Part shown: positions 14,550 through 51,833 of the stretch, piece by piece
Numbering within the stretch: the stretch's first letter is position 1
Layout of the letters: each line of letters starts with the position of its first letter
Source of the DNA: Streptomyces sp. NP160
GTDB lineage: Bacteria; Actinomycetota; Actinomycetes; Actinomycetales; Quadrisphaeraceae
Reading direction: 5' to 3'
DNA: 64,000 bases
Assembly: GCF_006335115.1 (NCBI RefSeq)
Contig: NZ_VDMJ01000050.1
Location: 1-64,000 of the forward strand
The notes under the pieces: model-generated
The model's input: the letters and a program-made list of their open reading frames with translations, nothing else
What the model was told of the DNA's origin: nothing
Databases searched by the model: none
Position numbers and translations under genes: made by a program

Positions 14550-14601
14550 GCGGGTGGTTCGTGGACGGTCCCCTGGCGGAGATCTTCTGCGAACCACCCG
14601 C
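14550..14601. promoter_or_regulatory. 12-bp perfect inverted repeat upstream of ugd
   Basis: Arms gcgggtggttcg (14550-14561) and cgaaccacccgc (14590-14601) are exact complements 28 bp apart, ending 36 bp before the ugd start codon. It could be a two-site operator or the stem of a leader structure controlling the first gene of the polysaccharide region. Confidence 0.6.
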
Positions 14602-14637
14602 GGCGGCGATGCTGTCCACGTCAGAGAGGTGCTACCC

Positions 14638-16023
14638 GTGACCAACACACCACCGTCCGCAGCGTCGACCACCAGTCCGCTCCCCCACTCGCCCGGCGGC
14701 GACGTCGTCAAGGTGGGTGTGGTCGGGCTCGGCTACCTCGGAGCCGTCCACGCCGCGTGCATGGCCGAGCTCGGGCACGAGGTCGTCGGCTTCGACATCG
14801 ACGAGCGCAAGCTCGCCGCCCTGCAGCAGGGACGCGCGCCGTTCTTCGAGCCCGGCCTGCCCGAGCTGCTGGCGCGCGTGACCGGCGGCGAGGCCGACGG
14901 GTCGATCACCTTCACCACCGACGTCGCGGACCTCAAGAGCTGCGAGGTCGTCTTCGTCTGCGTGGGGACGCCCCAGCGCAAGGGCGAGCTGGCTGCTGAC
15001 ACGACGTACGTGCAGGCCGCCTTCGAGTCGCTCGCGGACGTCATGGCCGGACCGGCGCTCCTGGTCGGCAAGTCCACGGTGCCGGTCGGCACTGCCGCGC
15101 GACTGGCGGACGTGCTGGCCGACCGCGCCCCCGACCTGGAACTGGCGTGGAACCCGGAGTTCCTCCGTGAGGGCCACGCCGTCACGGACACCCTCACGCC
15201 CGACCGCTTCGTCCTGGGGGTGCTCAGCGAGCGCGCCGAGAGCCAGCTGCGCCGCGTGTACGCCCGCCCGATCGCTGCCGGCACCCCCGTGCTCGTCGCC
15301 GACTACGCCACCGCTGAGCTGGTGAAGACCGCGGCCAACGCCTTCCTGGCCACCAAGATCTCCTTCATCAACGCCATGGCCGAGGTCTGCGAGGCCGCCG
15401 GCGGAGACGTCAAGGTCCTGGCCGACGCCATCGGCCACGACGACCGCATCGGCCGCAAGTTCCTCAACGCCGGCGTCGGCTTCGGCGGCGGCTGCCTGCC
15501 CAAGGACATCCGCGCCTTCATGGCCCGCGCCGGAGAGCTCGGGGCCGACCAGGCCCTGACCTTCCTGCGCGAGGTCGACAGCATCAACATGCGCCGCCGC
15601 GCCAAGGTGGTCGACCTGGCCCGCGAGGCCTGCGGCGGCTCCTTCATCGGCCGCAAGATCGCCGTGCTGGGTGCCGCGTTCAAGCCCCACAGCGACGACG
15701 TGCGCGACTCCCCCGCCATCTCCATCGCCGCCCAGGCCCGCCTGCAGGGCGCCGACGTCGTGGTCACCGACCCCGAGGCCGTCGCCAACGCCCAGCGCCT
15801 GTGGGGCGACCTCACCTACACCGAGGACACCGACGAGGCCCTGCGCGGCGCCGACGTCGTGCTGCTGCTCACCGAGTGGCCCCAGTACGTCGGCCTCGAC
15901 CCCACCCACGTGGCGTCCCTGACCCGCGGGCGCCAGGTCATCGACGGCCGCAACGTGCTCGACGCCGCTCCCTGGCGCGCGGCGGGCTTCACCTACCGCG
16001 CGCTCGGGCGCCCCAACGCCTGA
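14638..16023 (+). CDS. ugd: UDP-glucose 6-dehydrogenase (UDP-sugar dehydrogenase)
   Basis: The 461-residue enzyme has an NAD-binding motif GLGYLG at residues 30-35, the central helix region ELVKTAANAFLATKISFINA, and the catalytic cysteine in GFGGGCLPKD (Cys286). These mark the UDP-glucose/GDP-mannose dehydrogenase family. The four-electron oxidation of UDP-glucose to UDP-glucuronate feeds acidic exopolysaccharides. GTG 14638 is preferred because GAGAGGTGC lies just upstream and the Rossmann motif follows 30 residues in. It precedes a glycosyltransferase by 30 bp in what looks like a short operon. Another UDP-sugar substrate is possible. Confidence 0.9.
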   Translation: MTNTPPSAASTTSPLPHSPGGDVVKVGVVGLGYLGAVHAACMAELGHEVVGFDIDERKLAALQQGRAPFFEPGLPELLARVTGGEADGSITFTTDVADLKSCEVVFVCVGTPQRKGELAADTTYVQAAFESLADVMAGPALLVGKSTVPVGTAARLADVLADRAPDLELAWNPEFLREGHAVTDTLTPDRFVLGVLSERAESQLRRVYARPIAAGTPVLVADYATAELVKTAANAFLATKISFINAMAEVCEAAGGDVKVLADAIGHDDRIGRKFLNAGVGFGGGCLPKDIRAFMARAGELGADQALTFLREVDSINMRRRAKVVDLAREACGGSFIGRKIAVLGAAFKPHSDDVRDSPAISIAAQARLQGADVVVTDPEAVANAQRLWGDLTYTEDTDEALRGADVVLLLTEWPQYVGLDPTHVASLTRGRQVIDGRNVLDAAPWRAAGFTYRALGRPNA

Positions 16024-29297: not shown

Positions 29298-30677
29298 GTG
29301 ACCCTCCAGGACTTCCTGCGCGAGCTGAGGCACAGCTGGTGGATCGTCGCGCTCGGCGTCGCGCTGGGGGGGCTGCTGGGAGCGGTGCTGGCCACCTCCC
29401 AGACCCCGACCTACCAGTCCTCCGCGTCGCTGTTCGTGACGACGGCGGGGGCGGGGGCCTCGGACGCCCGGGCGGCGGACAACTCCTTCGTGCAGTCCCG
29501 CGTCACGACCTACGCCAGCCTGGGCACCCAGTCCTCGGTCCTCGAGCAGGCAGCGGCATCGCTCGACGGGGTCAGCGTCGAGCAGCTCCGCAGGGAGGTC
29601 ACCTCCTCGGCCAGGGAGGGCCAGAACCTCATCGACGTCAGCGCCTCAGCGGACTCCGCGGACCAGGCGGCGGCCGAGGCCAACGCTGTGGCGCAGGCGC
29701 TCGCCACCACCGTCAACCAGCTCGAGGCGCCGTCCGGGTCGGCGGCGGGCACGGAGTCCGAGGTGGTGCTGCGCGTCACCCAGGAGGCGACCGCGCCGGC
29801 AGAGCCGGTCTCCCCCAACGTGCCCAGGACCGTGCTGGTCACCCTGCTCGTGGGGCTCGCCGCGGGGATCGGGGTCATGGTGCTCGCGGCTGCGGCCAGC
29901 GGGCGGCTGCGCGGCCCGCGCGACGTCGCGAGCATCACCGGCATCGTGCCCACGTCGGTGCCGGAGGCGCGGGGCGAGCGGCAGCGCGAGGCCTACCGCG
30001 CGCTGCGCTCGGCGCTGCGCCACAGCCTCGGGGCTCGCGGCTCGGTGGCCATCGCGCCGGTGCAGCCGGGCACCAGCGGGCGCGAGCTGGCCGAGGAGCT
30101 GGCCCAGGCGCTCGGGGAGGTGGGCAGCACCTCGCTGCTGATCGACGCCGACTTCCGCTCCGACCGGGGCCGCGGGCGCCGCAAGGACACCGGTCAGGCC
30201 AACCCCTCCCGCGGCCTCGCCCAGGTGCTGGCTGGGGAGGAGGCGCTCGACCAGGTGGTGACCGCCGGCGGACACCCCAACACCTGGCTGCTGCCCGCCG
30301 GGACGTTCGTGGAGTCGTCGGCGCAGCTGCTCAGCAGCGACAACATGACGCGGATCCTCGAGCACGTCACGCGCGACTTCGACTACGTCCTGGTCCTCGC
30401 CCCGCCGATGCTGCAGCGCTCGGAGGCCGCGGTGCTGGCGGCGCAGGCCCACGCGACGGTGCTGCGCATGGACGCCCGCGCGGTGCGACGCCCTGACCTG
30501 CTCTTCGCCCTGGAGAGCCTGCACGCGGTCGGCGTCACCTCAATCAACCTCGTGCTCGAGGGCGTCTCCAAGCTGGACATGCAGCCAGCGCGGGTGCGCT
30601 ACACGGCCCAGGTCACCCCCGACGCCCTGCTGCTCCCGCGCTACGGCGGCGCCCCGGTCGACGCCGACCAGCGCTGA
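29298..30677 (+). CDS. Wzz-type chain-length regulator fused to a degenerate BY-kinase domain
   Basis: The 459-residue protein has a Wzz domain: a first helix (WWIVALGVALGGLLGAVLA), an external loop and a second helix near residues 178-200 (TVLVTLLVGLAAGIGVMVLAA) with the usual preceding Pro. The cytoplasmic half resembles BY-kinases: REAYRALRSALRHSLG and a Walker A'-like LLIDADFR are clear. The Walker A position reads APVQPGTSGRE without the GKT/GKS lysine, the Walker B region is VLVLAPP, and there is no C-terminal tyrosine cluster. It may set chain length without kinase activity. It starts 30 bp after the anchored GH16 gene and ends in a TGATG overlap. Confidence 0.85.
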   Translation: MTLQDFLRELRHSWWIVALGVALGGLLGAVLATSQTPTYQSSASLFVTTAGAGASDARAADNSFVQSRVTTYASLGTQSSVLEQAAASLDGVSVEQLRREVTSSAREGQNLIDVSASADSADQAAAEANAVAQALATTVNQLEAPSGSAAGTESEVVLRVTQEATAPAEPVSPNVPRTVLVTLLVGLAAGIGVMVLAAAASGRLRGPRDVASITGIVPTSVPEARGERQREAYRALRSALRHSLGARGSVAIAPVQPGTSGRELAEELAQALGEVGSTSLLIDADFRSDRGRGRRKDTGQANPSRGLAQVLAGEEALDQVVTAGGHPNTWLLPAGTFVESSAQLLSSDNMTRILEHVTRDFDYVLVLAPPMLQRSEAAVLAAQAHATVLRMDARAVRRPDLLFALESLHAVGVTSINLVLEGVSKLDMQPARVRYTAQVTPDALLLPRYGGAPVDADQR

Positions 30678-37514: not shown

Positions 37515-38384
37515 TCACGCAGGCACCGCCCAGGTCGCGGGCTGACCCTTGGTGTAGTTCTCGGCCTCGACCGCGCCGCCGGCGATCGCCTCGGCAGGCA
37601 GGTCGAAGCAGACCTGGTAGTCGGCGGCGCCGCCCGCCCTCAGGTTGGGCTGCTGGAAGCCCGGCCGGGGGACGGTGGCGGTGCAGCCGGTCCAGGAGTA
37701 GTTGCGGGCGTCGGTGCCCAGGAACGCCATCTGCAGCTCGGCCCAGGGGATGCCCTCCCCGGCGCCGTTGTAGACGACGCTGACGTCAGCGAGGACGTAG
37801 CGGCCCGTGGGCGGCTTGTTGTAGGGGTTGGCCTCGGCGATGGCCGCGTCGGCGCTGGTGTTCACGGCCGTGATGGTCACCGTGTAGTCGCCGACGGTCG
37901 CGCTCTGCCCGTACGCGAGCCCCTCCAGCGCAGCCGCGGGTGCGCTGGAGGACGGCGGAGCAGCCGGTGGCGCCGCGCTCGCGGAGGGCGCGGGCGTCGC
38001 TGACGGCGAGGGAGCCGGCGCGCTCGCTGACGGCGCCGGACGGGCTGGGGGCGCGGACGTGCTCACCAGCCGGTCGCCGAGCTGCACCACGTAGACGACG
38101 TCCACGACGAGCGCCACCACCAGTGCGAGGGCGCTCGCGGCGACGCCCACCGCGGCGCGCCTGCGGCCGCCGTGCAGGCCGCGCCGGCCCAGCACCAGCG
38201 CGAGGACGCCCATCACCACCCCGCCGAGCGCCGCGAGGACGCCGAGCAGGTTCACCAGCGGAACCCAGCACAGGAGCAGCGCGACCACGCCGCACACCAG
38301 CGCCGTCAGGGCCATCCACGTCGAGGGGCGTGGCGGCGGCGCTGCCAGCCCAGGTCGCTCCGCTGTGGTGTTCGCGTCCGACAC
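37515..38384 (-). CDS. DUF4190/DUF4352-type membrane protein
   Basis: The 289-residue protein has an N-terminal Pro-rich stretch, two or three helices (MALTALVCGVVALLLCWVP, LGVLAALGGVVMGVLALVLG) as in DUF4190, a third helix, a Ser/Pro/Ala linker and an external beta-rich domain (about 160-289) like DUF4352, an Ig-like fold found in actinobacterial lipoproteins and surface proteins. The external part contains two Cys residues. GTG 38384 is preferred, with a GGGGGG run upstream; GTG 38405 is possible. The function is unknown. Confidence 0.7.
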   Translation of the reverse strand: MSDANTTAERPGLAAPPPRPSTWMALTALVCGVVALLLCWVPLVNLLGVLAALGGVVMGVLALVLGRRGLHGGRRRAAVGVAASALALVVALVVDVVYVVQLGDRLVSTSAPPARPAPSASAPAPSPSATPAPSASAAPPAAPPSSSAPAAALEGLAYGQSATVGDYTVTITAVNTSADAAIAEANPYNKPPTGRYVLADVSVVYNGAGEGIPWAELQMAFLGTDARNYSWTGCTATVPRPGFQQPNLRAGGAADYQVCFDLPAEAIAGGAVEAENYTKGQPATWAVPA

Positions 38385-38450
38385 GTCGCCCCCCGGCTCC
38401 GGCACGCCGCGCTCGGCAGTGAGCGCGGACAGCAGAACCTAACCCGCTGC

Positions 38451-38744
38451 TCAAGCGGGGACGGCCAGGGCCAGCACCGCCCCTCCGAGCAGGAGCGCGG
38501 GCAGGGCGGCGACGTCGCCGAGCGTGAGCCCGTGCTGGTAGGTGAACTCCACGAGGATCGGCCCCTCCAGAGGGCTGTTGAGCAGCCACCACACCCCGGT
38601 GACGACGACGGCGCTCAGCCCCACCCGCCAGGCGCTGTGCGGCACCGGCGCATGCACCAGCGTCAGCAGGCAGGAGAGGGCCAGCAGGGCGAGGGCGAGC
38701 CCGACGACCCCAGCGACGAGCAGGGGCAGGCGCAGTCCGGGCAT
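38451..38744 (-). CDS. Small membrane protein, hypothetical
   Basis: The 97-residue product has three predicted helices (LLVAGVVGLALALLALSCLL, VGLSAVVVTGVWWLLN and ALPALLLGGAVLALAVPA). No family is recognised. ATG 38744 gives a sensible start at MPGLRLPLL. It lies 44 bp downstream of the polysaccharide deacetylase on the same strand and may be cotranscribed. Confidence 0.6.
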   Translation of the reverse strand: MPGLRLPLLVAGVVGLALALLALSCLLTLVHAPVPHSAWRVGLSAVVVTGVWWLLNSPLEGPILVEFTYQHGLTLGDVAALPALLLGGAVLALAVPA

Positions 38745-38788
38745 CGGGACATCATGCCCAGGCACCCCGGTGCAGAAGGCGTCCGCGG

Positions 38789-39676
38789 TCAGACCTGCGG
38801 CGGCACCAGCGTCCGCGGCGGCAGCCCGAGCGAGCGGACGTGCTCCGCGATGTCCTCCATCGGCGCCAGCCACACGTCGTCCATGCCGAGCACCCGCTCC
38901 AGCAGCCGCTCCAGCTCCAGCGCACGGCCCGGACGCCCCGACAGGAACGGGTGGCAGGTGAGCACCCAGCACCCACCGGCTGCTCGGAGCCCGTCGAGCT
39001 CGGCCTCCCACACCGCCCGGGCCACCGCCGGCGCCTCGATGAGCCCGCTCCCCACCAGGCCGGGCAGGTAGGCGAAGCGCTCCCAGTCGTCCAGGGCCCA
39101 GTGGATGGGGATCTCGACGACGGACGAGGCCGACGACGCAGACGACGACGCAGACGACGACGCGGCCAGCTCGTACGGACTGTCGCCGTCCATGAGGGAG
39201 GAGTCGTAGAGGAAGCCGCGCTCGGCCAGCAGCGAGGCGGTCCGCCACGAGGCGTCCCACATCGGCGCGCGGTACCCGACCGGCCGCACCCCGGCCACCG
39301 CCTCCAGCGCCGCCAGCCCGCGGTCGAGCGCGGTGGCCTCCTCCGCCTCGGTCAGCGCCGACGGCTGCTCGTGCAGGTAGCCGTGGTGGCCGACCTCGTG
39401 GCCGGCGGCCACCACGTCGCGGACCGCACCGGGGTAGCGCTCGGCGGTCCACCCGGGCACGAAGAATATGAAGCGCACGCGGTGGCGCTCCAGCAGGTCG
39501 AGCAGGCGCGGCAGCCCGACCAGCGGCCCGTAGGACTGGTGCGTGATGACGCTCGCGCGGGCGGCCACCTCGGGCTGCTCCCACAGCAGCCCGGACTCGG
39601 CGTCGAGGTCGAACGTGAACGACGCCGCGGCCCGCGCGCCGCCCGGCCACGGCAGCGGTGCCGGCAGGCGGCTCAC
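38789..39676 (-). CDS. Polysaccharide deacetylase family protein (NodB/PuuE type)
   Basis: The 295-residue protein shows the NodB fold: [11 protein letters not shown] (first Asp), [14 protein letters not shown], the zinc-type [12 protein letters not shown] block, [11 protein letters not shown] and a C-terminal [10 protein letters not shown]. It lacks a signal peptide and so is probably cytoplasmic, like PuuE/HpuA-type deacetylases that act on small N-formyl or acetamide substrates. A Ser/Ala-rich insertion near residues 165-180 is unusual. GTG 39676 overlaps the stop of the truncated agmatinase-like gene by 4 bp, which suggests a former amine-catabolism operon. Confidence 0.82.
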
Positions 39677-40233
39677 CGGCGTGCCCCCACCCGCAGGGCC
39701 AGCGCGGTGACCAGCTCGTAGGCGACGTTGGCAGCGGCGACGGCGGTCACCTCGGCGTGGTCGTAGGCCGGGGAGACCTCCACCACGTCGGCGCCGACCA
39801 GGGGCAGGTCGGCGATGCCCCGCAGCACAGCGAGCAGCTCGCGGCTGGTCAGCCCGCCGGCCTCGGGCGTGCCGGTGCCGGGCGCGAAGGCGGGGTCGAG
39901 CATGTCGATGTCCACGGAGACGTAGACGGGGTGCTCCCCCACGCGCTGGCGCACCCTCTCGATGATGCCGCGCACGCCGATGTCGTCGACGTCGCGGGCG
40001 TGGACGGCGGTGAAGCCGAGCGCGGCGTCGTCCAGGAGGTCGGCGCGGTCGAACAGGGAGCCGCGGATGCCCACGTGGGCGGAGCGGTCCTTGACCAGCA
40101 GCCCCTCCTCCGAGGCCCGGCGGAACGGGGTGCCGTGCGTGCAGGGAGCGCCGAAGTAGGTGTCCCAGGTGTCGAGGTGCGCGTCGAGGTGCACCAGCGC
40201 CAAGGGGCCGTGACGGCGGGCCAGCGAAGCCAC
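39673..40233 (-). pseudogene. 5'-truncated agmatinase/ureohydrolase-like gene
   Basis: The 186-residue reading frame matches the C-terminal two thirds of agmatinase-type ureohydrolases: [18 protein letters not shown] holds manganese ligands, THGTPFRRA follows, and [23 protein letters not shown] has the second metal cluster. The N-terminal third, including the GGDHS metal motif, is missing, and no agmatinase-like sequence is found upstream in any frame. The product would lack a metal ligand and be inactive. The break falls at about 40.23 kb, where the lower-GC block begins, so it was probably cut by the event that brought in the island. Confidence 0.82.
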
Positions 40234-40582
40234 ACGGACGATCCGGACGAAGGCGAAGCGAGGCTGGTCGCCGTTCGTGGGTGGGCAGCTTGACCGTCTC
40301 GCGCCAGGCCATGCTGCAATTCACGATGACCGGGAGCAGAGTGCGGACTGCAGCTAGCGGCTGACTAGAGCGCCTGCTACACGAGCAGCTCGGCGCCTAG
40401 GGTGTGCGAGTCGAATCGCCACCCGCTTCGGAGCACCACGCGCTGCACGCGCCTGACAGAACCAGCGACTCAGTTCTAGCCACATTCCATTGTCCGCTTG
40501 GGCCACCTGAACACCAGGACGACGCTCGATATGAGAGACCCTAGGCAGTGCGCAGAAGTCACCATCCGGAGGAGTCACCCCG
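40234..40582. other. Island left boundary, no gene seen
   Basis: Base composition changes across this stretch from the flanking high GC to the mixed composition of the island. No convincing coding frame, insertion sequence, tRNA or direct repeat is visible. A good ribosome site (GGAGGAG) at its right end serves the first island gene. It must also contain that operon's promoter, which cannot be assigned with confidence. Confidence 0.6.
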
Positions 40583-41602
40583 TTGAGAATCCTACTTCCC
40601 GCGAGGATCGTAGAGAGGCATGTCGGTGGAAACACCACCTACTCTCGAGAGCTGAAAACAGGCTTGCTCGCTAGAGGACATGCAGTTGACTCCATTCCAG
40701 CGGGTGGCAATCCGATAACAACCCTGCTGCGCGAGACGTTCGCATCGCAGGCTTCCCAGAGCTCAGAAACGGTCCTTCACTTCACCGCGGACACGGGACC
40801 TCTTCTAAGGTCGCGATCTCCAGCCGTTGTCACCGTTCATGGAGTGGCTAGCCGTTGGATCAACACAGCGAGGAATCGCCGCCAGGAAGCCGCATGGAGA
40901 TTCCGCGTACAGAGGGCGATATCCAGCGTCGACCGAATAATCACCGTCTCGAACTCCAGCGCGGAAGACATACTGGCCACATTCAAGGTGCCCCAGTCAG
41001 ACATCAGCGTCATTCCCCATGGAATATCCCCAGCATTCTTTGAAGCCGGCGCGTCACGCGATACCATGGGCGAAACTAGTGCGCCATTTGCTCTTTACAT
41101 CGGAAATCTCGAACCCCGCAAGAACCTGATTAACCTGATAGAAGCATTCGCAAAGCCTCCAATGGCCTCCATAGGGGCGAGGCTGGTTATCGCGGGTCGA
41201 CCCGCTTGGAACTATGCAGAGATACTGAAAGCGCTCGAAGGGGCCGAGAACATAGAGTACCTCGGATTCATTGACAACTCTACCCGCATGTCTCTCCTAA
41301 AGAAAGCGCGCCTGTTTGTCTTTCCCTCACTGTATGAAGGCTTCGGCTTTCCGGTTCTGGAGGCTCTCGCAGCCGGGTTACCGGTAGCAACCTCGCGCCG
41401 AGGATCGCTCGCGGAAGTGGCCGGCCCGTCATGGGAGCTAAGCGAGTTGAATGCGGATGCCCTAGCGCGGGATCTCAGCCGCGCCTGGCAAGACGAAGAT
41501 TGGCTGACTGAGTGCTCAGTCGCAGGCCCAGAATGGGCTAGGCAGTACAACTGGGAGACGAGTGTCGAGAAGCATGAATCGGTGTACAGGGAGATCATCT
41601 GA
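40583..41602 (+). CDS. Family 4 glycosyltransferase (island)
   Basis: The 339-residue GT-B protein starts at TTG 40583 behind GGAGGAG. It shows VVTVHGVASRWIN, a donor-domain start FALYIGNLEPRKNLINLIEA and the EX7E motif in YEGFGFPVLEALAAGLPVA. This is the typical GT4 plan of O-antigen and capsule loci. Codon use is more AT-rich than in flanking genes. The stop overlaps the next start (TGATG), so it is coupled to the pyruvyl transferase. Confidence 0.9.
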   Translation: MRILLPARIVERHVGGNTTYSRELKTGLLARGHAVDSIPAGGNPITTLLRETFASQASQSSETVLHFTADTGPLLRSRSPAVVTVHGVASRWINTARNRRQEAAWRFRVQRAISSVDRIITVSNSSAEDILATFKVPQSDISVIPHGISPAFFEAGASRDTMGETSAPFALYIGNLEPRKNLINLIEAFAKPPMASIGARLVIAGRPAWNYAEILKALEGAENIEYLGFIDNSTRMSLLKKARLFVFPSLYEGFGFPVLEALAAGLPVATSRRGSLAEVAGPSWELSELNADALARDLSRAWQDEDWLTECSVAGPEWARQYNWETSVEKHESVYREII

Positions 41603-42672
41603 TGAGAGTGTTAGTTCTTCATGCTTACAGCGCCCACAACAAGGGGGACGGCTTGCTGGTGGACGAAACACTACACCTGATCAAGCAGGCGCTTGGTGAG
41701 TCAAATGAGATACATCTAATTGCTTCTGATCCGAGCAGTTTTGCGCATCTCCCGATCGACGGCCTTCACAACTCAAAGCCGAAACACCCCAGAGCTTTGA
41801 TCGACTACGTCCGCCAGCTGTGGATGATGCGAACCTATGACGTCGTCGTCGCGGTAGGAGGGGGCTACCTTCGTGCGGGTAATTGCATCGAGGCCCTCAA
41901 AACGCTAGCCATTCATGGCCCGCAACTCTTGGCCGCAACCGCATCCAGAAGACCAGCCATCTACCTGCCGCAGAGTATCGGCCCCCTACGCGGGCCATCT
42001 GGGCCACTTTTCCGGATGCTTCTCAGAAGGACCAGGAAAGTCTTCCTTCGCGACGATGTATCCGTGCGCGAACTCCATCTCCCGAACACTCAAAGAACGA
42101 ACGACCTGGCCCTCATGGCGCGCCCTTCGAACCATCGCATCGGGCGCCCCCTACACCACAGACCGATCTTGAGTGTTCGCCACATCCGAGGCCGCATCCC
42201 TCTGCCGGTCTTGAGACTGGCAGAAAAGCTTGATCAGTTCGATGGATACGTGCAAAGTTCGACTGGAGGGAACGATGACACGCACGCTATGGCGTCCATC
42301 AGTCCTCTTGAGACCGTCACCATGACGGAGCTACTTGGACCTGAGCCTTCGGAGCGTCGAGTAGTGATTGCCGTCAGACTGCATGCCGCTCTTATGGCGT
42401 TAAATGCTGGACACCTCGTAATCCACCTCGCATATGAAAGAAAGGGATTTGGGGTTTTCGAGGATCTTGGACTTCTGGAGTATGTTCACAAGGTTACAGA
42501 TTTCGATGTCGACCTGGTGCTACACCAAATAATGGCTTTGACTCACAATGCTGACACGCGATCTTCCTACGAACAAGCAGTAGCCGCCGCGAGACAGCAG
42601 GCCATGACTGCACACCAGTCTATTGTCGACGAGCTAGCCCGTGCAGCGGCGACTACGCCCATGGGCGTCTGA
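41602..42672 (+). CDS. Polysaccharide pyruvyl transferase family protein
   Basis: The 356-residue protein has the features of the WcaK/CsaB family: an N-terminal HAYSAHNKGDGLLVDETL, then VVVAVGGGYLR, YLPQSIGPLRG and VIAVRLHAALMALNAGH with the conserved RLHA. These enzymes move pyruvate from phosphoenolpyruvate to a sugar hydroxyl pair to form an acidic ketal on surface polysaccharides, though some relatives have other roles. It is placed second in the island operon. A negatively charged pyruvylated polymer is therefore plausible. Confidence 0.85.
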   Translation: MRVLVLHAYSAHNKGDGLLVDETLHLIKQALGESNEIHLIASDPSSFAHLPIDGLHNSKPKHPRALIDYVRQLWMMRTYDVVVAVGGGYLRAGNCIEALKTLAIHGPQLLAATASRRPAIYLPQSIGPLRGPSGPLFRMLLRRTRKVFLRDDVSVRELHLPNTQRTNDLALMARPSNHRIGRPLHHRPILSVRHIRGRIPLPVLRLAEKLDQFDGYVQSSTGGNDDTHAMASISPLETVTMTELLGPEPSERRVVIAVRLHAALMALNAGHLVIHLAYERKGFGVFEDLGLLEYVHKVTDFDVDLVLHQIMALTHNADTRSSYEQAVAAARQQAMTAHQSIVDELARAAATTPMGV

Positions 42673-42673
42673 C

Positions 42674-43960
42674 ATGAAGACTTTGGCTAGAAAGACTCTC
42701 GCCCACACGCTGCGCCAGAACAACGCAACAGTGCTGGCTTGGTACCTTTCCGCTGGTTTTATTTTCATAGTTGCCAACCTGGCAATCCTCTTGCTTCTGA
42801 GGTTCGTGCCGCCGGAGGACATCCGCCAGGCGACCGGGGGCTTAGCGCCGCCCGATCGAGCATTCCAGCAGCAGCTCTGGTTCTTGTGGGTCGTCGCGGC
42901 CATTGCTTGGCTTTTCTCTCAGAACCTGAAGGCATCGAACGGCCAGAGATCCCCCACTTCAGACTCATATCAGCTGTATCGCGCTGGCATCGCCGTGGCA
43001 GCCATAGGCGTCGCATCCTATCTCGCATGGGCTGGGATCGCTATTACGCGCGGGTACTCGCCCGGACTTCTGTTGTCAGTTTTGCAGGGTAACCCGGCGG
43101 CACTTGCCGCTTCACGAGAATACCTCCGACCGGTCGCTGGAATCACCAGTGTGGTCGCGTTTTCGGTGCCAGGCATCTGTGCGGCTATAGCCTCTCGCCA
43201 ACCCATTAGCCGTTGGGGCCGCTGGCTCATAGCAATAACTCTTGCAGGAGCCGTTGCCAGAACTTTTCTGAATGCCGAGCGACTGGCTCTGGAGGAATTT
43301 ATGCTTCCCGTGCTGGTTGCCATCGCCTTCCGTGACCGGGAGAAGGTAAGCCAGCGCATCCGGTCGGTACTCGTTATAGCTCCGTTTTTTACTGTTCTTT
43401 TGTTCGCTGCAGGAGAAGCGCTACGGCCGAGCTATACATCTCGATCGGGCGAAGTGGGATTTACGAGTTATATATATGACCGACTCCTCGGCTACTACCT
43501 CTCTGCTCAGGTCAACGGGGAACCGTACGCCAGATTGATACCGCATGTTCCAGCTCCAAATTTCACCGCCGACGCAATCTGGAACGCTCCGCTCATCGGC
43601 TCATTTGTGACCCCAGCCTCGACCTTCGGATTTGACTCGCGAGAAAGATTTGCCATCGCCTTGGGTAGGTACTTGAATCCAGAACTAAATACCGTCGCAC
43701 TACTTCCCAGTATATTGGCCGAGTGGGGCATCTGGTTAGCAGTTCCGGTAGTCCTTTTGTGCACTATAGGCCTGACGGTGGCCTCCAAGCGCTGCAGTCC
43801 TGACCACCCGGCCTCTGCGGCCGCATACGGATTCCTCTTGATTGCTGCACTGGAGTCCGCCCGTTACCCGTATCTCGCTCAATCAAGGTTCTGGCTCGCT
43901 ATTTTAGGCTGCCTAATTGTGATCGCAATTTCAAGACGGATCAAGGCAACTGGTGCCTAG
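42674..43960 (+). CDS. Oligosaccharide polymerase-like membrane protein (Wzy candidate 2)
   Basis: The 428-residue product has about ten or eleven hydrophobic helices, beginning VLAWYLSAGFIFIVANLAILLLL, with a large extracytoplasmic loop (about 255-350) containing YARLIPHVPAPNFTADAIW and STFGFDSRERFAIALGRYLN. This topology is usual for O-antigen polymerases (Wzy/EpsG-like), which are little conserved in sequence. It starts 1 bp after the pyruvyl transferase stop. A role in joining repeat units is inferred from topology and neighbours. Confidence 0.75.
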   Translation: MKTLARKTLAHTLRQNNATVLAWYLSAGFIFIVANLAILLLLRFVPPEDIRQATGGLAPPDRAFQQQLWFLWVVAAIAWLFSQNLKASNGQRSPTSDSYQLYRAGIAVAAIGVASYLAWAGIAITRGYSPGLLLSVLQGNPAALAASREYLRPVAGITSVVAFSVPGICAAIASRQPISRWGRWLIAITLAGAVARTFLNAERLALEEFMLPVLVAIAFRDREKVSQRIRSVLVIAPFFTVLLFAAGEALRPSYTSRSGEVGFTSYIYDRLLGYYLSAQVNGEPYARLIPHVPAPNFTADAIWNAPLIGSFVTPASTFGFDSRERFAIALGRYLNPELNTVALLPSILAEWGIWLAVPVVLLCTIGLTVASKRCSPDHPASAAAYGFLLIAALESARYPYLAQSRFWLAILGCLIVIAISRRIKATGA

Positions 43961-45059
43961 CCTGATCAACCGTGCCCTTGGTCACGGTCTCCTCATCGTC
44001 AGCTCTGGCGTTTCGGCAATCCTTCCTTTGGCGCTGCTCAGGTCCATAGACCGCCTCTACGGTGTCGAGATTGGTGCGGCAGCATCAGTGTCGCTGACGG
44101 TCGCCGCCTTTGTCTCGCAGATTGGGGTTGCATATTGGCTGGAGTCTCGAATCCTGGGGCAAACAGCAATTGACTTAGGCATCAGCCCGGTAATTGTCAC
44201 GATAGGCCTTGGTGGATGCGTATTGTGGCCGCTGGGTGCCGCCTCCCCATCCGTTGGGTTGTGGCTTGCCGTACCCGCGCTTGCTGCGCTCGAGGCGACT
44301 AGGGCGATCGGCATCTATAGGGGCAGATCACCCTGGGAGCTAATCGCGACGGTGATCCTCCTCATGCTCTGCATCACGGTCCTCTGCATGCCGCATCAGC
44401 TCATTATCTGGATGGCAACGCCGTTAGCTGTCGCCGTTGTAATTTGTCTTCGCCGCTACTCGAGTCGCGGCGGTTTGATGCCTTCACCCAGGCGAGGGGC
44501 TGGTTGGGTACTGGCTGAGACTGCCTCGACTGGGATCGTGCAACCCCTGGTGAGCGTCGTGATTCTGGGTGCCATGGGAGCGTCTGCAGCACTCGCCTAT
44601 CGCTATCTTCTGAGCCTCATCAATCTGTTCTCTCCATTCCTTGCCGTCATACGAATCCGACTGATGCGCAGCCACTCAGATTTCGAGATTGTCGTGACTG
44701 GAGTGGCGGTGACCTTTATCTCGGGAACGCTTATCATTCCAGAAGTGTTTCATCTGTGGAGTTTCTTCTTTGGGGAAGTTTGGAACGAGGTTGGCATATG
44801 GAGCCTGGCTGTGGCCTGTGTTTGGAAGTTCGCCAGCCTGGTGTCAACAATCCCGTTCGCAAGCCTCCGTAGGCTGGGCCGTGCCCGCGAGGTATTTATT
44901 CTGCGCGTTGTATCGAGCGTCATCTATCTGGGGCTGGCTGCGCTTGCGGCTGGCCTGGGAGGCAGCATTTTCTTGGTGATCGCTGCTTACGCCCTGGCAG
45001 AGGCTGCAACAAGTATCATCTACGGGAGGTTTGCGTGGGTCCAAAAATCGCAGTCGTGA
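43953..45059 (+). CDS. Polysaccharide flippase-like membrane protein (Wzx candidate 2)
   Basis: The 368-residue product has about ten helices and ends with a segment close to TSIIYGRFAWVQKSQS. It resembles oligosaccharide flippases of the MOP superfamily, though it is short for the family (usually 400-480 residues). GTG 43953 overlaps the polymerase gene by 8 bp, and its own end overlaps the following transferase by 25 bp, giving a tightly packed operon. Confidence 0.75.
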   Translation: MPSLINRALGHGLLIVSSGVSAILPLALLRSIDRLYGVEIGAAASVSLTVAAFVSQIGVAYWLESRILGQTAIDLGISPVIVTIGLGGCVLWPLGAASPSVGLWLAVPALAALEATRAIGIYRGRSPWELIATVILLMLCITVLCMPHQLIIWMATPLAVAVVICLRRYSSRGGLMPSPRRGAGWVLAETASTGIVQPLVSVVILGAMGASAALAYRYLLSLINLFSPFLAVIRIRLMRSHSDFEIVVTGVAVTFISGTLIIPEVFHLWSFFFGEVWNEVGIWSLAVACVWKFASLVSTIPFASLRRLGRAREVFILRVVSSVIYLGLAALAAGLGGSIFLVIAAYALAEAATSIIYGRFAWVQKSQS

Positions 45060-45862
45060 CAAGCACGATCGGCAGAGCCGCGGCGTTGAGGACTCTGGTA
45101 GAAACGATACCGCCGGGGGTGACGATTAGCATCGCCTGGCAGGGCCGTGACTCAGCTGATGCATCCTTGCGAGCGCTACTCGATCAACGAGGTGCTTCTG
45201 TAACCCCAAGCTCCGGTGGGGTCAGCCGCGGGCGCAACGAGGCCTTCGCTCAGATTGAGACCGACGTGAGCCACGTAGTATTCCCCAATGATGACACTTA
45301 CTACCCAGCGGACTTTTTTGAGAAGCTGCAGGCTGAATTGGAGAGCCGCCCAACTGACCTTGGATTATTCCCTGTTTTGCACACCAATGGGCCGAATCAA
45401 GAAGTAGTGCCCAGGGCCGGGCTGTCTACATGGGGGGACGCGAAGGGTTCGGTAGTACGTCGAGTTCTACAGACTGCACACGAGCCCGGCATGTTAGCAA
45501 GTCGAAAGTTGTACGAGCGCCTTTCGGGATTCAACGAATCACTCGGTGTCGGTTCGGCCACGCCGTATCAGAGTGGTGAAGGAGCGGACTTCGTCCTCCG
45601 TGCGATAGGCTGCGGCGTCAAAGTCTCTGACCTATCTGGAGTCCTTTACGCTTTGGAATCCCCACAGGAGCGCGACCAAGACTTGCGTCGGAAACGACTT
45701 CGTTATGATGTGGGCACCGCGCACATGCTAGGTATCCACCACCAATCGTCTGGCGTCAAAAGGACGACAGCTCGCTTTCTTGTGGCGAATCTAGTTCGCG
45801 GTCGAAGCCTTCGGGCGACTCTCCGGGTGCTGAGCGCGTTCCGAGCCGGTTGGTCTCGATGA
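45035..45862 (+). CDS. Family 2 glycosyltransferase (island)
   Basis: The 275-residue protein starts at GTG 45035, with GGGAGG upstream inside the flippase gene. It has a GT-A start (KIAVVTSTIGRAAALRTLV), the GGVSRGRNEAF motif, an acidic VVFPNDDTYYPADFFEKL motif and SGEGADFVLRA. It therefore probably transfers a sugar from a nucleotide donor with a divalent metal. The ATGA overlap with the next gene couples translation. Confidence 0.87.
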   Translation: MGPKIAVVTSTIGRAAALRTLVETIPPGVTISIAWQGRDSADASLRALLDQRGASVTPSSGGVSRGRNEAFAQIETDVSHVVFPNDDTYYPADFFEKLQAELESRPTDLGLFPVLHTNGPNQEVVPRAGLSTWGDAKGSVVRRVLQTAHEPGMLASRKLYERLSGFNESLGVGSATPYQSGEGADFVLRAIGCGVKVSDLSGVLYALESPQERDQDLRRKRLRYDVGTAHMLGIHHQSSGVKRTTARFLVANLVRGRSLRATLRVLSAFRAGWSR

Positions 45863-47028
45863 AGATTGCGATTGTTCCTTCAACTCCCTTCTGGGAGGAT
45901 CATTTCGGTCGACTCGCTCTATCTGAGTCCGATCTGGCAGACGGGATCTACCGCGGCACCTGGATTACCAGTTATGCGCGTTCACTGACAGCTTCGGGCC
46001 ACGAGGTGACGCTTCTCGTTCCCTCGCGCGTGCGCGCCTCGCGGGTTGAAGGCGTCCTGATGACAGTGGCCCTCGTGAAAGCCCAACGCTGGGCGGCGAT
46101 TGTCCCTCGACGCTGCTCTCGCGGCCCGCTCCGGGATATTGTCTCGCTGTTATCGTCGTTCTGCCTTTTCGAAGAACTGCGGCGACATGATCTGATTTAC
46201 GTCCAGGAGTATAATACTGGACGTTTTGCCCTCCTCTCTAGAAAGCTTGGACGCCGAAAGCTGCCTCCAATGATTGCGGCACATCACGGCGGCAGCATCG
46301 AACGCACCTACAAGTGGGTGATGGCAGTGGCCGATTACCCAGCCTGTTCACTATTTACGACGCTGACGGAACGTGAACTTCGGTCACTGCACAAACTGAC
46401 TAGTGTCGAAGAGAGAAAAATTCGGTTGCTCAGCAATCCGGTGGATGATCGTTGGTTCAAGCTTGACGGCAGTCCTGATGCGCGGACCATTTTGTGGATG
46501 GGTCGCATGGAGGATCGCGCGAAGAACCTTTCCTTCTTGCTAGATATGGTCGAAAACGTCGTTGCGGGAGGCGTTGAAGTTCGCCTGCTGCTCGCTGGCG
46601 GGGGTGGGGACGCTGATGCAATCCGCGATCGCGTAAACCAGTCTCCCACATTGCGGAAGAGTGTTGAGATGCACGGACGCTTGGACAGTGTTAGTGATCT
46701 TCTGCAAGTGGCCAAAAAGGCCAGCATCTTAGTACTTCCAAGTCGAGTAGAGGGCTTTCCTCTGGTCGTCGCCGAAATGCTCTGCGGCGGGCGCGGACTC
46801 CTTCTCTCCCGTTTGCCATACGTTGATTCTGAACTTCAGGGCCTCGCGGGAGTAAGTGTTTTTGAGCAAGGGGATCTGCCGGGCGCCACTGCGGCGCTGG
46901 AGAGAGCGGTCACTGAGGGACTCAGCCCGGATGAGTCAACCGTACTTTGGGCTCGCGCGCGGTTCTCGCCCGAGAGCTTCCACTCGGATTTGGCGGCAAT
47001 AGTCGTGGAGGCTGCAGCAGTGGACTAG
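45859..47028 (+). CDS. Family 4 glycosyltransferase (island)
   Basis: The 389-residue GT-B protein begins MKIAIVPSTPFWEDHFGR and has a donor-domain start ILWMGRMEDRAKNLSFLLD and the EX7E region VEGFPLVVAEMLCGGRG. ATG 45859 overlaps the previous stop. The N-terminal part is less typical than in other GT4 members. It is the sixth gene of the island; its sugar is unknown. Confidence 0.87.
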   Translation: MKIAIVPSTPFWEDHFGRLALSESDLADGIYRGTWITSYARSLTASGHEVTLLVPSRVRASRVEGVLMTVALVKAQRWAAIVPRRCSRGPLRDIVSLLSSFCLFEELRRHDLIYVQEYNTGRFALLSRKLGRRKLPPMIAAHHGGSIERTYKWVMAVADYPACSLFTTLTERELRSLHKLTSVEERKIRLLSNPVDDRWFKLDGSPDARTILWMGRMEDRAKNLSFLLDMVENVVAGGVEVRLLLAGGGGDADAIRDRVNQSPTLRKSVEMHGRLDSVSDLLQVAKKASILVLPSRVEGFPLVVAEMLCGGRGLLLSRLPYVDSELQGLAGVSVFEQGDLPGATAALERAVTEGLSPDESTVLWARARFSPESFHSDLAAIVVEAAAVD

Positions 47029-47093
47029 AAAGGCAGGAGCTTGTTGGAAGCCCGCCCCTGCGATCCAGTAGCCACGTATACTGAGGGGGATCG

Positions 47094-48224
47094 ATGTCCG
47101 GTAAGTCCAAACTGAGAGACAGGCTGGTTCCACCGGTGAGCACCGACTCCGGCACTAGGCCCATAGAAGGCGAGCGCCCAATCGTGTTGCACGTTGTGGA
47201 GGCCCTCGGTGGCGGAGTGATGGTTGCCCTCAGGGACTACATCGTAAACACACAAGATGCTTACGACCACGTCATCCTGGGGGCGCACCGGGATGGGCAC
47301 GACACCGGTGACCTCGACGAGTTCTCCGTTTTGCGACTGCGCGCCGGCAAGTCTCCACTTGGCATGATTCGTCAGCTACGCCAGGTAGTAGATCAAATGC
47401 AGCCGGACCTTATCCATCTCCATTCATCCTGGGCTGGACTGGTAGGAAGGCTTGCCTTTTTTAAGAGGTCAAACATTCTCTACACGCCACATTGCTATGC
47501 CTTCGAGCGCCTCGACTACCTCAAGCCCGCCAGGGTCGTCTTTTGGATCGTTGAGGCTCTGCTGGCATTTCGCACTCGATGCGTGATAGCCGTGAGTCCA
47601 CGCGAGGCTAATCTCGCGAGAAGTTTGCCCGGTAGTCGCAGTGTCTATTATGTGCCCAATACTGCAATCTTTTCGGAGCCAGATCTAGCAAGAAATGAAA
47701 ACTCGAGAATCACGATCGTGGCGGCTGGGAGAGTGATGCGACAGAAGGGTCCTCGGTGGTATTCCCAGTATGCGCGTCACCTCGCAAATGCTTCAGCAGA
47801 CATATCTCTCCTCTGGCTGGGTGGTGGTGAGCCCGAGTTGGAGTCGGAACTCTCTGCCGCAGGTGTCCAAGTGTCTGGATGGATCTCGCGCGCAGAGTTA
47901 GTCGAACGGCTCTCTACGGCGGACTTATACGTTCACTCCGCGGCTTGGGAAGGCGCGCCTCTTCTCCTTTTAGAAGCCGCGAGTATGGGTGTCCCTGTCA
48001 TCGCCAGGGACATCCCAGCTCTTCGCAGTCTCGGAGTGACACACCTGTTCACCGATCCTGTGGAAGCAGCCACATTCACGGCGAAGGCAATTGAGGCCAA
48101 CTCGATGGTGGGCCTGATCGATGATTCGCATCGGATCACAAAGCGTCATGCACCGGCCAAGCAGCGGGAAGCGTTGCTGGCGGCGTACAAATTTTGCGTC
48201 GATACCACGTCGAAGGACACATGA
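47094..48224 (+). CDS. Family 4 glycosyltransferase (island, last gene)
   Basis: The 376-residue protein begins a typical GT4 fold at IVLHVVEALGGGVMVALRDY, continues with LIHLHSSWAGLVGRLA and TPHCYAFERLDYL, and ends with WEGAPLLLLEAASMGVPVIA holding the donor-binding Glu. This type is close to GT4 proteins annotated in capsule loci. A good ribosome site (GAGGGGGA) precedes ATG 47094. A probable terminator follows within 30 bp. Confidence 0.9.
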   Translation: MSGKSKLRDRLVPPVSTDSGTRPIEGERPIVLHVVEALGGGVMVALRDYIVNTQDAYDHVILGAHRDGHDTGDLDEFSVLRLRAGKSPLGMIRQLRQVVDQMQPDLIHLHSSWAGLVGRLAFFKRSNILYTPHCYAFERLDYLKPARVVFWIVEALLAFRTRCVIAVSPREANLARSLPGSRSVYYVPNTAIFSEPDLARNENSRITIVAAGRVMRQKGPRWYSQYARHLANASADISLLWLGGGEPELESELSAAGVQVSGWISRAELVERLSTADLYVHSAAWEGAPLLLLEAASMGVPVIARDIPALRSLGVTHLFTDPVEAATFTAKAIEANSMVGLIDDSHRITKRHAPAKQREALLAAYKFCVDTTSKDT

Positions 48225-48251
48225 CGCGCAGGTGGAAGTCTGTAGTTGACC

Positions 48252-48286
48252 GCCCTCAAAAGCAGGGGTTGTCCCTCTTTGGGGGC
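48252..48286 (+). terminator. Probable terminator after the island operon
   Basis: An imperfect hairpin pairs gccctcaaaagcagggg with ccctctttgggggc around a ttgt loop, 28 bp after the last island stop codon. There is no clear T-run after it. Confidence 0.55.
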
Positions 48287-48311
48287 ATGCTCAGCCTGAC
48301 GCAGACTTTCG

Positions 48312-48605
48312 ATGTGGCCGCCACCACCTCGGCGACGAACCCCCGGACGAGCGCGACGCCCCGAGCGCGGGCCTCCAGCGCATCGACCGTGCGCCCGGGG
48401 CTGTCGACGTCGTCGGACACCACCACCGCCACCACCGAGCGCCCCTGGGCGGCAGCGGCCCGCATGGCCTCAAGCGCTCCCTCGAGCCGTCCCATCACCA
48501 AGGCCCCCTCGCCTCCGGCGCACCGGCGAGCGCGTTTTCGATCCCCGACATAAGCAGCCGTGCGTCGAGCACTGTCAGCCCCCACGGGGATGGCGTGCCT
48601 CTTAC
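48312..48605 (-). pseudogene. Frameshifted, truncated LuxR-type regulator remnant
   Basis: Two minus-strand frames together match the N-terminal part of the LuxR-type protein at 60155-60757. The first (about 48605-48495) reads LTVLDARLLMSGIENALAG, like VLDDRPLVVLGLHAALAG. The second (about 48500-48312) reads LEGALEAMRAAAAQGRSVV and DDVDSPG, like the intact ALEAVQAAAARGRPVV and DDVDSPG. The frame changes near 48500, and the match stops near 48312, with the whole HTH domain missing. It is thus a broken paralogue cut at the right edge of the low-GC island. Confidence 0.75.
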
Positions 48606-48741
48606 GTCCGGTGGGAGCCTCAAGTTCGTCGGCTCCTCGGCGTCATCGACCTGCTTCACTGGTCCCCGTCGGCCGGCGCCCTCCGCGCCCCGGGCCGGGA
48701 CGGCGCTGAGGCGGTGGAACGCACCGGTTCCAGATTTTCCC

Positions 48742-48767
48742 GCGCAAGGGCAGGGCTGCCCTTGCGC
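48742..48767. terminator. Perfect 11-bp stem-loop, possible terminator
   Basis: Arms gcgcaagggca (48742-48752) and tgcccttgcgc (48757-48767) are exact complements around a 4-base loop, in a non-coding stretch between the regulator remnant and the secreted protein gene. It has four T residues before it on the plus strand only, so direction is uncertain. Confidence 0.5.
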
Positions 48768-48933
48768 CGAGGCCCGGGTGTGCGCGCCGCGGCGTCGCGC
48801 GCGCATGGTGCGGCCTGCTGAGAGCGGCGCCGTGCTCGACCGCCCGCGCTACCAGCCATCCCCCTCGGAGTTGCGGCTGGGGCTGGACCGCCAGACCCCC
48901 GTGCCGCGCGCACCAGGTGGACGTGGCCAGGAT

Positions 48934-48970
48934 GACGGCGGTCGTCCGGGTGCCCCGGACGACCGCCGTC
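48934..48970 (-). terminator. Strong 17-bp hairpin terminator
   Basis: Arms 48934-48950 and 48954-48970 are exact 17-bp complements around a 3-base loop, just downstream of the stop of the minus-strand secreted protein gene at 48990. The stem is very GC-rich; no T-run follows, as is common for actinobacterial terminators. Confidence 0.85.
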
Positions 48971-48989
48971 AATGGTCCTGCAAGCTGCG

Positions 48990-49766
48990 TCACGCGCCGG
49001 AGGAGCCACCCAGCACCACCCGCACGCTCTTGACCCCCGACGTGGTCACGGGCGTCGCGCTGCCACCGGTGCACGCGCCCTTGTCGCCGGCCTGCTTCAC
49101 GTAGGTGCCGCGCTGGGCGTACCCGCCGCTGCCGTCGCTGTCGAAGCTCGGGCGGTTCCAGGTCACCGACGACTGCGGCACCGTGCTGCACGTCTTCTGC
49201 GTGCCGAAGTACTCCGCGAAGTTCTGCGCGCCGGTGATCGCGGTGGCCTCCGGCGCCACCCGCAGGGAGCCGATGAAGGTCTCCTTGCCGGTCTTGCGGT
49301 TCAGCAGCCAGGCGCCCCACCACTGGCCGTCAGCATCGGCGTCGAGCTGCCACACGCGCAGTCGGTAGCTGGTCCCCGTGGTGATCGTGTAGGGCAGGCG
49401 GCAGCTCAGCCCCGATCCCTCCCCGTCGAAGGCGCCGCAGGACGGCCCGGACGCGGCGGTGGCGTTCCACAGCGAGAAGATGGCGGTGTCCCCCGTGGTG
49501 CCGTTGAAGCGGTTGCCGTTGGTCTGCAGGCCCGTGTACCCGCCGTCGGGGGCGGCCGTCCAGTTCCACGCTAGCGCCCAGTACGTGGCCGTCGCGCGCT
49601 TGTTGACGGTCATCACCTGGTCGACGTTGTAGAAGCCGGCGTCCGAGCCGGGCACCGACCAGTGCGTGTAGTAGTAGGCGTTCTGGTGCTGCGCAGCCGC
49701 TGCCGGGGACGCCCCGAGCAGGAGGGCCAGCACGGCCAGGGCGGCGACGGAGGCGCGCTTGATCAC
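48990..49766 (-). CDS. Secreted DUF3472-like protein
   Basis: The 258-residue protein has a signal peptide (VAALAVLALLLGASPAAAA) and a mature region resembling DUF3472: YYYTHWSVPGSDAGFYNVDQ, TYWALAWNW, GYTGLQTNGNRF and TAIFSLWNATAA. Four or more Cys residues may form disulfides. DUF3472 proteins are exported and sometimes joined to carbohydrate-binding modules; activity is unknown. GTG 49766 is preceded by AGGA. It is a single gene with a strong terminator. Confidence 0.75.
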   Translation of the reverse strand: MIKRASVAALAVLALLLGASPAAAAQHQNAYYYTHWSVPGSDAGFYNVDQVMTVNKRATATYWALAWNWTAAPDGGYTGLQTNGNRFNGTTGDTAIFSLWNATAASGPSCGAFDGEGSGLSCRLPYTITTGTSYRLRVWQLDADADGQWWGAWLLNRKTGKETFIGSLRVAPEATAITGAQNFAEYFGTQKTCSTVPQSSVTWNRPSFDSDGSGGYAQRGTYVKQAGDKGACTGGSATPVTTSGVKSVRVVLGGSSGA

Positions 49767-50009
49767 AGCCGGATCCTGGCTACCGGCCGAGCGGTCTTGA
49801 AGTCCCCCCGGGAGGCTCACCGGTGTCAGCCGCGTCCCCTGTTGAGGGTCGTTGACGATCACCACCGGCCACGCCACCCTCGCCTCGAGACCCCGGCACG
49901 AGCCGGTGCGGTCCCGACGCCGGGTGCGAGCTCCCTGGCACCGACCCCGTCGTGCACCCCTTACCCACTCGCCACCGCTCGTCGCGAGCACCTTCCCCCG
50001 AGGGCACCC

Positions 50010-51748: not shown

Positions 51749-51833
51749 GGCACCGCGGGCCGGAGTCCTGCGGTCGAACCTGATCGGAGGACACCGGCGC
51801 CGCTCCGCTGGGGCGGGTGGCACGATCTCGCCG

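Follow-up and report, generated by a model that had tools for sequence, protein, structure and literature searches.

A low-GC Wzx/Wzy-type cassette, probably acquired, in a variable polysaccharide slot of an actinomycete genome

The DNA analysed here, referred to as the window, comprises bases 1-64000 of contig C133 (92,891 bases) in the draft genome of Streptomyces sp. NP160 (4.77 Mb, 186 contigs), and it carries between positions 40583 and 48224 an island of seven genes with low guanine-plus-cytosine (GC) content, whose proteins we number P0001-P0007 in gene order. We consider it highly probable that this island is a Wzx/Wzy-type cassette gained by horizontal transfer, and that the variable slot holding it lies at the distal end of an extensive region of resident polysaccharide genes. 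Acquisition is favoured by a GC content at third codon positions (GC3) of 0.60 versus 0.93 in resident genes, by the lack of a like stretch in 202 kb of the same genome and by the absence of P0002, P0003 and P0005 from all five genus mates (G001-G005, one genome per species; all G-numbered genomes belong to the same order). It is likewise favoured by the remnant of a LuxR-type regulator gene at the right edge, by different low-GC cassettes near the same anchor gene in G001 and G004, and by a gap between the two slot anchors of 25.6 kb here versus about 4 kb, with rml genes, in two mates. We regard the locus as a clear example of a familiar route by which bacteria change their surface coat: a cassette replacement of surface polysaccharides of the enteric type, here in an actinomycete genus of very high GC content, with short and filled versions of the slot between species.

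Base composition

An excess of A/T at third codon positions relative to the flanks had been put forward in an earlier, sequence-only note on this DNA (the original prediction), and the two counts quoted there are exact, with 29 G/C of 60 at 43381-43440 and 42 of 60 at 24181-24240. The per-gene calculation that it proposed bears the excess out, as GC3 lies at 0.58-0.64 in all seven island genes versus 0.85-0.99 in 23 resident genes (Mann-Whitney p 1e-6), the latter range leaning upward because these genes were hand-picked from open reading frames (ORFs) chosen partly by high GC3. Taken together, the island has 56.8% GC and a GC3 of 0.60, the 23 resident genes 73.4% and 0.93. Counts in fixed pieces are independent of gene calls: the 127 sixty-base pieces in the island average 34.0 G/C, the 934 pieces in the flanks have a mean of 44.5, and not one of these 934 has 29 G/C or fewer. 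In a sample outside the island covering 202 kb of the 4.77-Mb genome, the minimum GC of 788 overlapping 1-kb windows was 0.672, none falling below 67%, and the windows inside the island range from 0.544 to 0.585. The composition shifts sharply at about 40450 and about 48300.

Since the draft assembly consists of 186 contigs, one might suspect an artefact in which a low-GC contaminant was joined into the contig. The 92.9-kb contig, however, has genus-specific sequence to the left and to the right of the island, and close to the anchor gene named above two other genomes have a low-GC cassette of this kind as well; we therefore hold such an artefact to be extremely unlikely.

Gene content of the island

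The seven island genes are the following, with family matches from Pfam and NCBIfam.

40583..41602, + strand: GT4 glycosyltransferase P0001, first island gene (PF00534, 1.3e-26)
41602..42672, + strand: polysaccharide pyruvyl transferase P0002 (PF04230, 2.2e-16, 61.0 bits, cut-off 25.3)
42641..43960, + strand: Wzy-like polymerase P0003, tentative (TIGR04370, 9.6e-4, 18.2 bits, below the cut-off of 40)
43953..45059, + strand: Wzx-like flippase with MOP fold, P0004 (AlphaFold model and fold match)
45035..45862, + strand: GT2-like glycosyltransferase P0005 (PF00535, 3.9e-4, 20.8 bits, below the cut-off of 23.3)
45850..47028, + strand: GT4 glycosyltransferase P0006 (PF13692, 8.2e-16)
47094..48224, + strand: GT4 glycosyltransferase P0007, last island gene (PF13692, 1.1e-16)

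By Pfam and NCBIfam together the order thus reads GT4, pyruvyl transferase, a protein with no Pfam family, one with no family in either collection, GT2-like, GT4 and GT4. The predicted operon accordingly holds three GT4 glycosyltransferases over the Pfam cut-off and a GT2-like one slightly under it. The genes had been described as overlapping, which holds for the first six ORFs (overlaps of 1-32 bases, the 32-base overlap of P0003 hinging on its upstream GTG start), not for the seventh, which begins 65 bases past the sixth.

Among the members named by the original prediction, the pyruvyl transferase stands over its cut-off and the flippase at the level of the MOP fold, and the polymerase match falls below cut-off. 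Exceeding the curated threshold, P0002 belongs by its profile match to the pyruvyl transferase family and is predicted to transfer pyruvate from phosphoenolpyruvate; in its best stretch the PF04230 match spans profile positions 1-157 of 280. It is 42-49% identical to four aligned homologues, and a sequence search of the PDB with P0002 matched no chain. For P0001, the nearest PDB chains by sequence are GT4-type enzymes.

P0004 matched neither a Pfam nor an NCBIfam family. Its AlphaFold model, built from 5 sequences, has a confidence (pLDDT) of 76.9, and Foldseek returned a MATE transporter (1.2e-5) followed by WzxE (1.4e-5); VIA-align against WzxE 9g9p gave a Z of 21.5 and a root-mean-square deviation of 3.2 over 291 residues. 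As MATE and MurJ chains fit the model almost equally well, the flippase call is sound as a MOP-fold assignment in the model, and a lipid-linked polysaccharide unit would be its presumed substrate. The label of polymerase for P0003 is tentative and draws on the weak TIGR04370 match and the position of the gene; homologues 20-25% identical occur in 8 loci, and its AlphaFold model is poor (pLDDT 58.7), with no significant fold match.

Priming and resident polysaccharide genes

The island had also been said to encode a full set of polysaccharide genes, which it does not. The initiating phosphoglycosyltransferase family PF02397, to which this search was limited, is nowhere on C133, and genes for a Wzz-like protein and a UDP-glucose dehydrogenase are resident and of high GC.

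14554..16023, + strand: resident UDP-glucose/GDP-mannose dehydrogenase (PF03721, 4e-52)
29298..30677, + strand: resident Wzz-like chain-length protein (PF02706, 29.8 bits, cut-off 25.5)

The Wzz-like protein, encoded outside the island, has in addition a weak AAA_31 match (PF13614, 26.8 bits, cut-off 27), and the dehydrogenase has matches of 90-92% identity in G001, G002 and G003. The genome's three PF02397 members lie on C119 (two) and C68 (one), and near the two on C119 are the genome's best rmlA-type gene and a LytR-CpsA-Psr homologue. Each of the six genus genomes has 2-3 phosphoglycosyltransferases; in G001 all three are on the cassette contig, the nearest about 58 kb off, and in G004 they are likewise on the cassette contig, the nearest about 62 kb off. 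We infer that the island, if functional, uses priming and probably attachment supplied by resident genes. Besides P0002, the window's own genome has two further PF04230 members, and three of the five genus mates have others of this family.

Adjoining the resident polysaccharide genes, positions 34877-36118 encode a PET hydrolase-like protein (PF12740, 366 bits) with a 90% identical match over 261 residues in G002.

The slot in the genus

The slot is delimited by two anchors, and two further features lie at the island's edges.

38454..38744, - strand: anchor A, left end of the slot, a 97-amino-acid putative membrane protein with a homologue in all six genus genomes
38789..40324, - strand: resident polysaccharide deacetylase between anchor A and the island (PF01522, 1.7e-16)
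48322..48510, - strand: remnant of a LuxR-type regulator gene at the right edge (E 1.8e-16 at DNA level against the paralogue at 60446-60618)
C133:64332-65304, just past the window: anchor B, right end of the slot, a paralogue of the gene at 51834 (PF03372, endonuclease/exonuclease/phosphatase family)

The anchor A protein has no Pfam family; the idea that it is a conserved non-coding element was rejected, as translation gives the 97-amino-acid gene. Anchor B is 81% identical to its counterpart in G001 and about 75% to those in G003 and G005. By BLAST between the stretches, 25.6 kb separate A from B in the window's genome and about the same length in G001, as against some 3.8 kb in G003 and 4.2 kb in G005. 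In G003 the slot is filled by RmlD-, RmlC- and RmlA-type genes of ordinary high GC (Pfam, run on G003 only) and a likely, unscanned rmlB, and the slot stretches of G003 and G005 are 90% identical to each other.

In the window, anchor A is followed by the deacetylase and then the low-GC cassette. G001 has a LytR-CpsA-Psr gene after anchor A and then, some 1.7 kb on, a low-GC cassette (GC3 0.57) of pyruvyl transferase, GT4, hexapeptide transferase, Wzx, GT2, GT4 and Wzy_C; in G004 a LytR-CpsA-Psr gene likewise follows anchor A, and the low-GC cassette directly after it reaches nearly to the contig end, with anchor B out of view. The G004 cassette encodes GT28, GT4, hexapeptide transferase, Wzx, Wzy_C, a second hexapeptide transferase, GT4 and GT2, with a GC3 of 0.56 that leaves out the second hexapeptide transferase gene. 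Cassette proteins of G001 and G004 match each other at best with 50% identity over 56 residues and otherwise with 25-27% over 377-397, and those of the window match either set with 25-34% over at most 169 residues. Because the protein matches among the three are this weak, they represent distinct cassettes and not variants of one, and the slot appears from these comparisons to hold different low-GC cassettes in different species, near the same left anchor. The first G004 cassette gene is 50% identical to the resident high-GC window gene at 16054, so the cassette and resident pools are not wholly separate. Codon usage correlates at 0.71-0.75 among the three full cassettes and at 0.82 between the island and the resident genes; as the latter exceeds the former, codon usage gives no hint of a donor.

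The slot parts of G002 are split over three contigs, for which reason this genome cannot be judged; two low-GC acyltransferase genes lie on its C47, and on C4 a stretch of 60-62% GC with a PF04230 match adjoins the orthologue of a DUF3472 gene. The stretch consists of two genes (G002:C4:22241-24666, L038 7241-9666) on the side of DUF3472 opposite the regulator gene, and one of the two overlaps the PF04230 match. Elsewhere in G002, the start of the anchor A gene and its upstream sequence occur as direct repeats at G002:C29:48973-49237 and 57209-57472 (L036), 90% identical over 267 bases. These flank a segment with the deacetylase and its neighbours, which looks like a possible exchange unit.

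The original prediction of an acquired island stands in the genus comparison: the same gene order and composition do not recur throughout it, and the specific searches for P0002, P0003 and P0005 gave no match in any of the five mates. P0001 has GT4 matches of 24-40% there, as expected of GT4 paralogues, and for P0004, P0006 and P0007 the comparison covered the stretches fetched from the genus-mate genomes.

Differing cassettes of three species with nearly equal GC3 (0.56-0.60) could also suggest a cassette that is old in the genus and lost in other species, its low GC kept by selection, for instance through Lsr2 silencing of AT-rich DNA; three Lsr2-family matches over cut-off are present in the genome. 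This we judge improbable. P0002, P0003 and P0005 are without a match in the five mates, and homologues of the same modules exist at high GC, with 0.74 in Cellulomonas denverensis and 0.78 in loci with P0003 and P0005 matches of the family members G006 and G009, so their functions do not need low GC. Under the reading of horizontal acquisition, the recurring GC3 of 0.56-0.60 in different cassettes raises the question why they remain AT-rich in this host, where silencing by Lsr2-family proteins may be one idea. Its boldest form, a genus slot beside anchor A dedicated to interchangeable low-GC Wzx/Wzy cassettes that are primed by distant phosphoglycosyltransferases and silenced by Lsr2-type proteins until needed, which would keep their GC low, is a speculation that we think unlikely; if it were true, composition would be part of the regulation of coat switching in a 75% GC host. 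The arrangement offers a testable system: cassettes that differ in content but resemble one another in composition sit by a single anchor and would share priming enzymes encoded far off.

Homologues elsewhere and the origin of the island

Protein searches covered 396 genomes of the order, 395 besides the window's own. This is probably the GTDB order to which Arthrobacter belongs, since one of its genomes, G206, falls beside Arthrobacter sp. EpRS71 in the GT4 tree. Of the 395, 6 match P0002 at 36-50% identity and 12 more weakly, mostly over part of its length; 8 have a P0003 match and 17 a P0005 match (23-37% identity, in several near a P0003 match), genus mates not being among them. A scan of contigs with P0002 alone yielded 24 pattern matches, none of which was confirmed. 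A scan with an alignment of five homologues gave 176 pyruvyl transferase relatives, and the best 80 of these together with 6 loci of other provenance make up our set of 86 related loci. Among the best 80, the highest identity to P0002 is 51% at full length; a single fragment attains 54% over 157 residues.

In 31 of the 86 loci a P0001-type gene stands directly before the pyruvyl transferase gene (identities of 37-54% for the GT4 and 33-51% for the pyruvyl transferase), and in 24 of these 31 the GT4 most like P0007 directly precedes the pair. By tblastn with one enzyme (from C68) as query, 20 of the 31 have a phosphoglycosyltransferase in the stretch fetched, some of these stretches being short. 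A Wzy or Wzx match is present in 10 of the 31 and none over 60 bits in 21. The GT4-pyruvyl transferase module is therefore widespread among Actinobacteria and appears permuted here, with the P0007-type gene last.

Low GC is not typical of this module, an idea we considered and rejected: it lies no more than 7 points below the median GC of the locus in 32 of 36 loci, and 8 points or more below in four (L031, L064, L072 and L087, with one gene measured in L031 and L087). Across these loci the pair has a GC as low as 0.43 (a Pseudomonas) and as high as 0.74 (Cellulomonas denverensis); in a few hosts it lies well under that of its neighbourhood, as in Kocuria polaris with 0.54 in a locus reaching 0.72. 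The pyruvyl transferase genes of L064 (Pseudomonas schmalbachii) and L031 (G320) have 43-46% GC in loci that reach 62-63%, so low-GC versions exist outside the genus too. One locus, L061, on a contig labelled Vibrio cholerae strain 35D, contains an actinobacterial-type GT4-GT4-pyruvyl transferase module in DNA of 50-70% GC; the V. cholerae genome has about 47% GC, and L061 is probably a contaminant contig.

That the island arrived as a block, as originally proposed, agrees with the uniform composition of all seven genes; the block itself may be a mosaic. A stepwise origin, in which the common GT4-pyruvyl transferase module was joined to a separate Wzy/GT2 module and did not come as a block from a single donor, is possible, though it is not the account we would choose. 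It fits the adjacency of the pair in 31 of 86 loci, 21 of them without a Wzy or Wzx match over 60 bits, and the closeness of P0003 and P0005 matches in G006, G009, G012, G010, G085 and G025, in whose fetched stretches no P0002 match was found (for G010 the whole contig is just 3.1 kb). The window's position also differs between the trees of the two paired genes, but neither placement is fully supported, G117 has homologues of the pyruvyl transferase, GT4, Wzy and GT2 in one locus, and all seven island genes share a GC3 of 0.58-0.64, by which any joining would have preceded arrival.

In a plasmid collection, P0001 gave 565 records, all below 60% identity and at most 35.5% among the matches listed, and P0002 gave two Burkholderia records only; with matches this low and few, no plasmid carrier was seen.

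Island edges and points against acquisition

At the left edge, the deacetylase DNA is 87-88% identical to that of G001 and G002, and this similarity stops at 40224 and 40226, near the gene start; the true start is probably near 40226. At the right edge, the LuxR remnant corresponds to residues 86-146 of a 242-amino-acid paralogue (tblastn E only 0.12), the GerE domain of which falls in the missing half. Its similarity stops at 48322, 98 bases past the last island gene, and in G002 a full-length LuxR-type copy adjoins the DUF3472 orthologue. Most simply read, the far half of the LuxR-type gene was lost when the incoming block took its place.

Several points weigh against an acquired cassette in a variable slot. 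Signs of a probable frameshift are seen further upstream in the LuxR remnant, which may have been decaying before the island came. No tRNA lies in the 64-kb window, no integrase or transposase was among the window proteins scanned (part of the ORFs), and the repeats at the edges are short, imperfect pairs that look like chance, so a route of entry is not indicated. The closest homologues outside the genus, for which the original prediction had called, were found, but at best identities of only 50-54% (396 order genomes and the best 80 of 176 loci), which names no donor; the GT4 tree groups the window with Microbacteriaceae and G084 without full support, and the pyruvyl transferase tree leaves it unplaced. 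Contig breaks conceal part of the slot in G002 and G004. The slot also carries resident-like genes (the deacetylase and DUF3472), making the site a mosaic and not a clean insertion. The Wzy assignment is weak, with its match under the cut-off and its poor model. Since each species is represented by a single genome, exchange between strains was not seen in this set.

LuxR-type genes recur along the region (window 60155-60883; C133:65414-65948, L043; copies in G002:C4), and some adjoin endonuclease/exonuclease/phosphatase paralogues (51834, C133:64332), which suggests local duplications and possible recombination sites. An Rfam scan over 38000-52000 at E 0.1 returned nothing.

Proposed function and known systems

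The gene families outline how the acquired cassette might act. A phosphoglycosyltransferase encoded elsewhere in the genome would put a sugar phosphate on undecaprenyl phosphate, and the cassette glycosyltransferases would extend this lipid-linked unit, to which the pyruvyl transferase would add a pyruvate ketal and with it a negative charge. The Wzx-like protein would then flip the unit and the Wzy-like protein polymerise it, before the resident Wzz-like and LytR-CpsA-Psr proteins would set the length of the polymer and attach it to the wall. In this scheme the polymer and the way it is attached are presumptive, as is any effect on phages; an altered surface type and phage sensitivity, as foreseen in the original prediction, are plausible from the gene families.

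The island would work like a Wzx/Wzy-dependent locus with initiation from elsewhere in the genome. It resembles Wzx/Wzy O-antigen and capsule loci in that a single cassette at a variable site combines glycosyltransferases with a flippase and a polymerase-like gene. For the cps loci of Enterobacteriales, PMC7305143 describes horizontal transfer both of entire loci and of their individual genes. Unlike these, the island has no initiating phosphoglycosyltransferase, its anchor genes are others, its host is a high-GC Gram-positive and the comparison rests on one genome per species. With the GT4-GT4-pyruvyl transferase loci of Rhodococcus, Gordonia, Cellulomonas, Arthrobacter, Microbacterium and others it shares the GT4-pyruvyl transferase pair in the same order; it differs from them in having P0007 last (theirs is first in 24 of 31) and no phosphoglycosyltransferase on the contig (present in 20 of 31 of theirs).

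Pyruvylated cell-wall glycopolymers occur in Actinobacteria such as Promicromonospora and Nocardiopsis, and pyruvate ketals on wall polymers serve as a chemotaxonomic marker without known function, both according to the review PMC6801904. Such polymers are a plausible product class; the island is known from its genes alone, and the sugars, linkages and genes described in the passages cited are not tied to this locus. No paper on this slot was among the literature matches listed.

Two smaller features lie to the right of the island. Just 3' of the DUF3472 stop, positions 48933-48971 form a perfect 18-base inverted repeat with a 3-base loop, a possible terminator. Further along and inside the slot region, the minus strand encodes at 52919-55414 an 831-amino-acid protein with RCC1-type repeats (PF25390, PF00415), a repeat family best known from eukaryotes.

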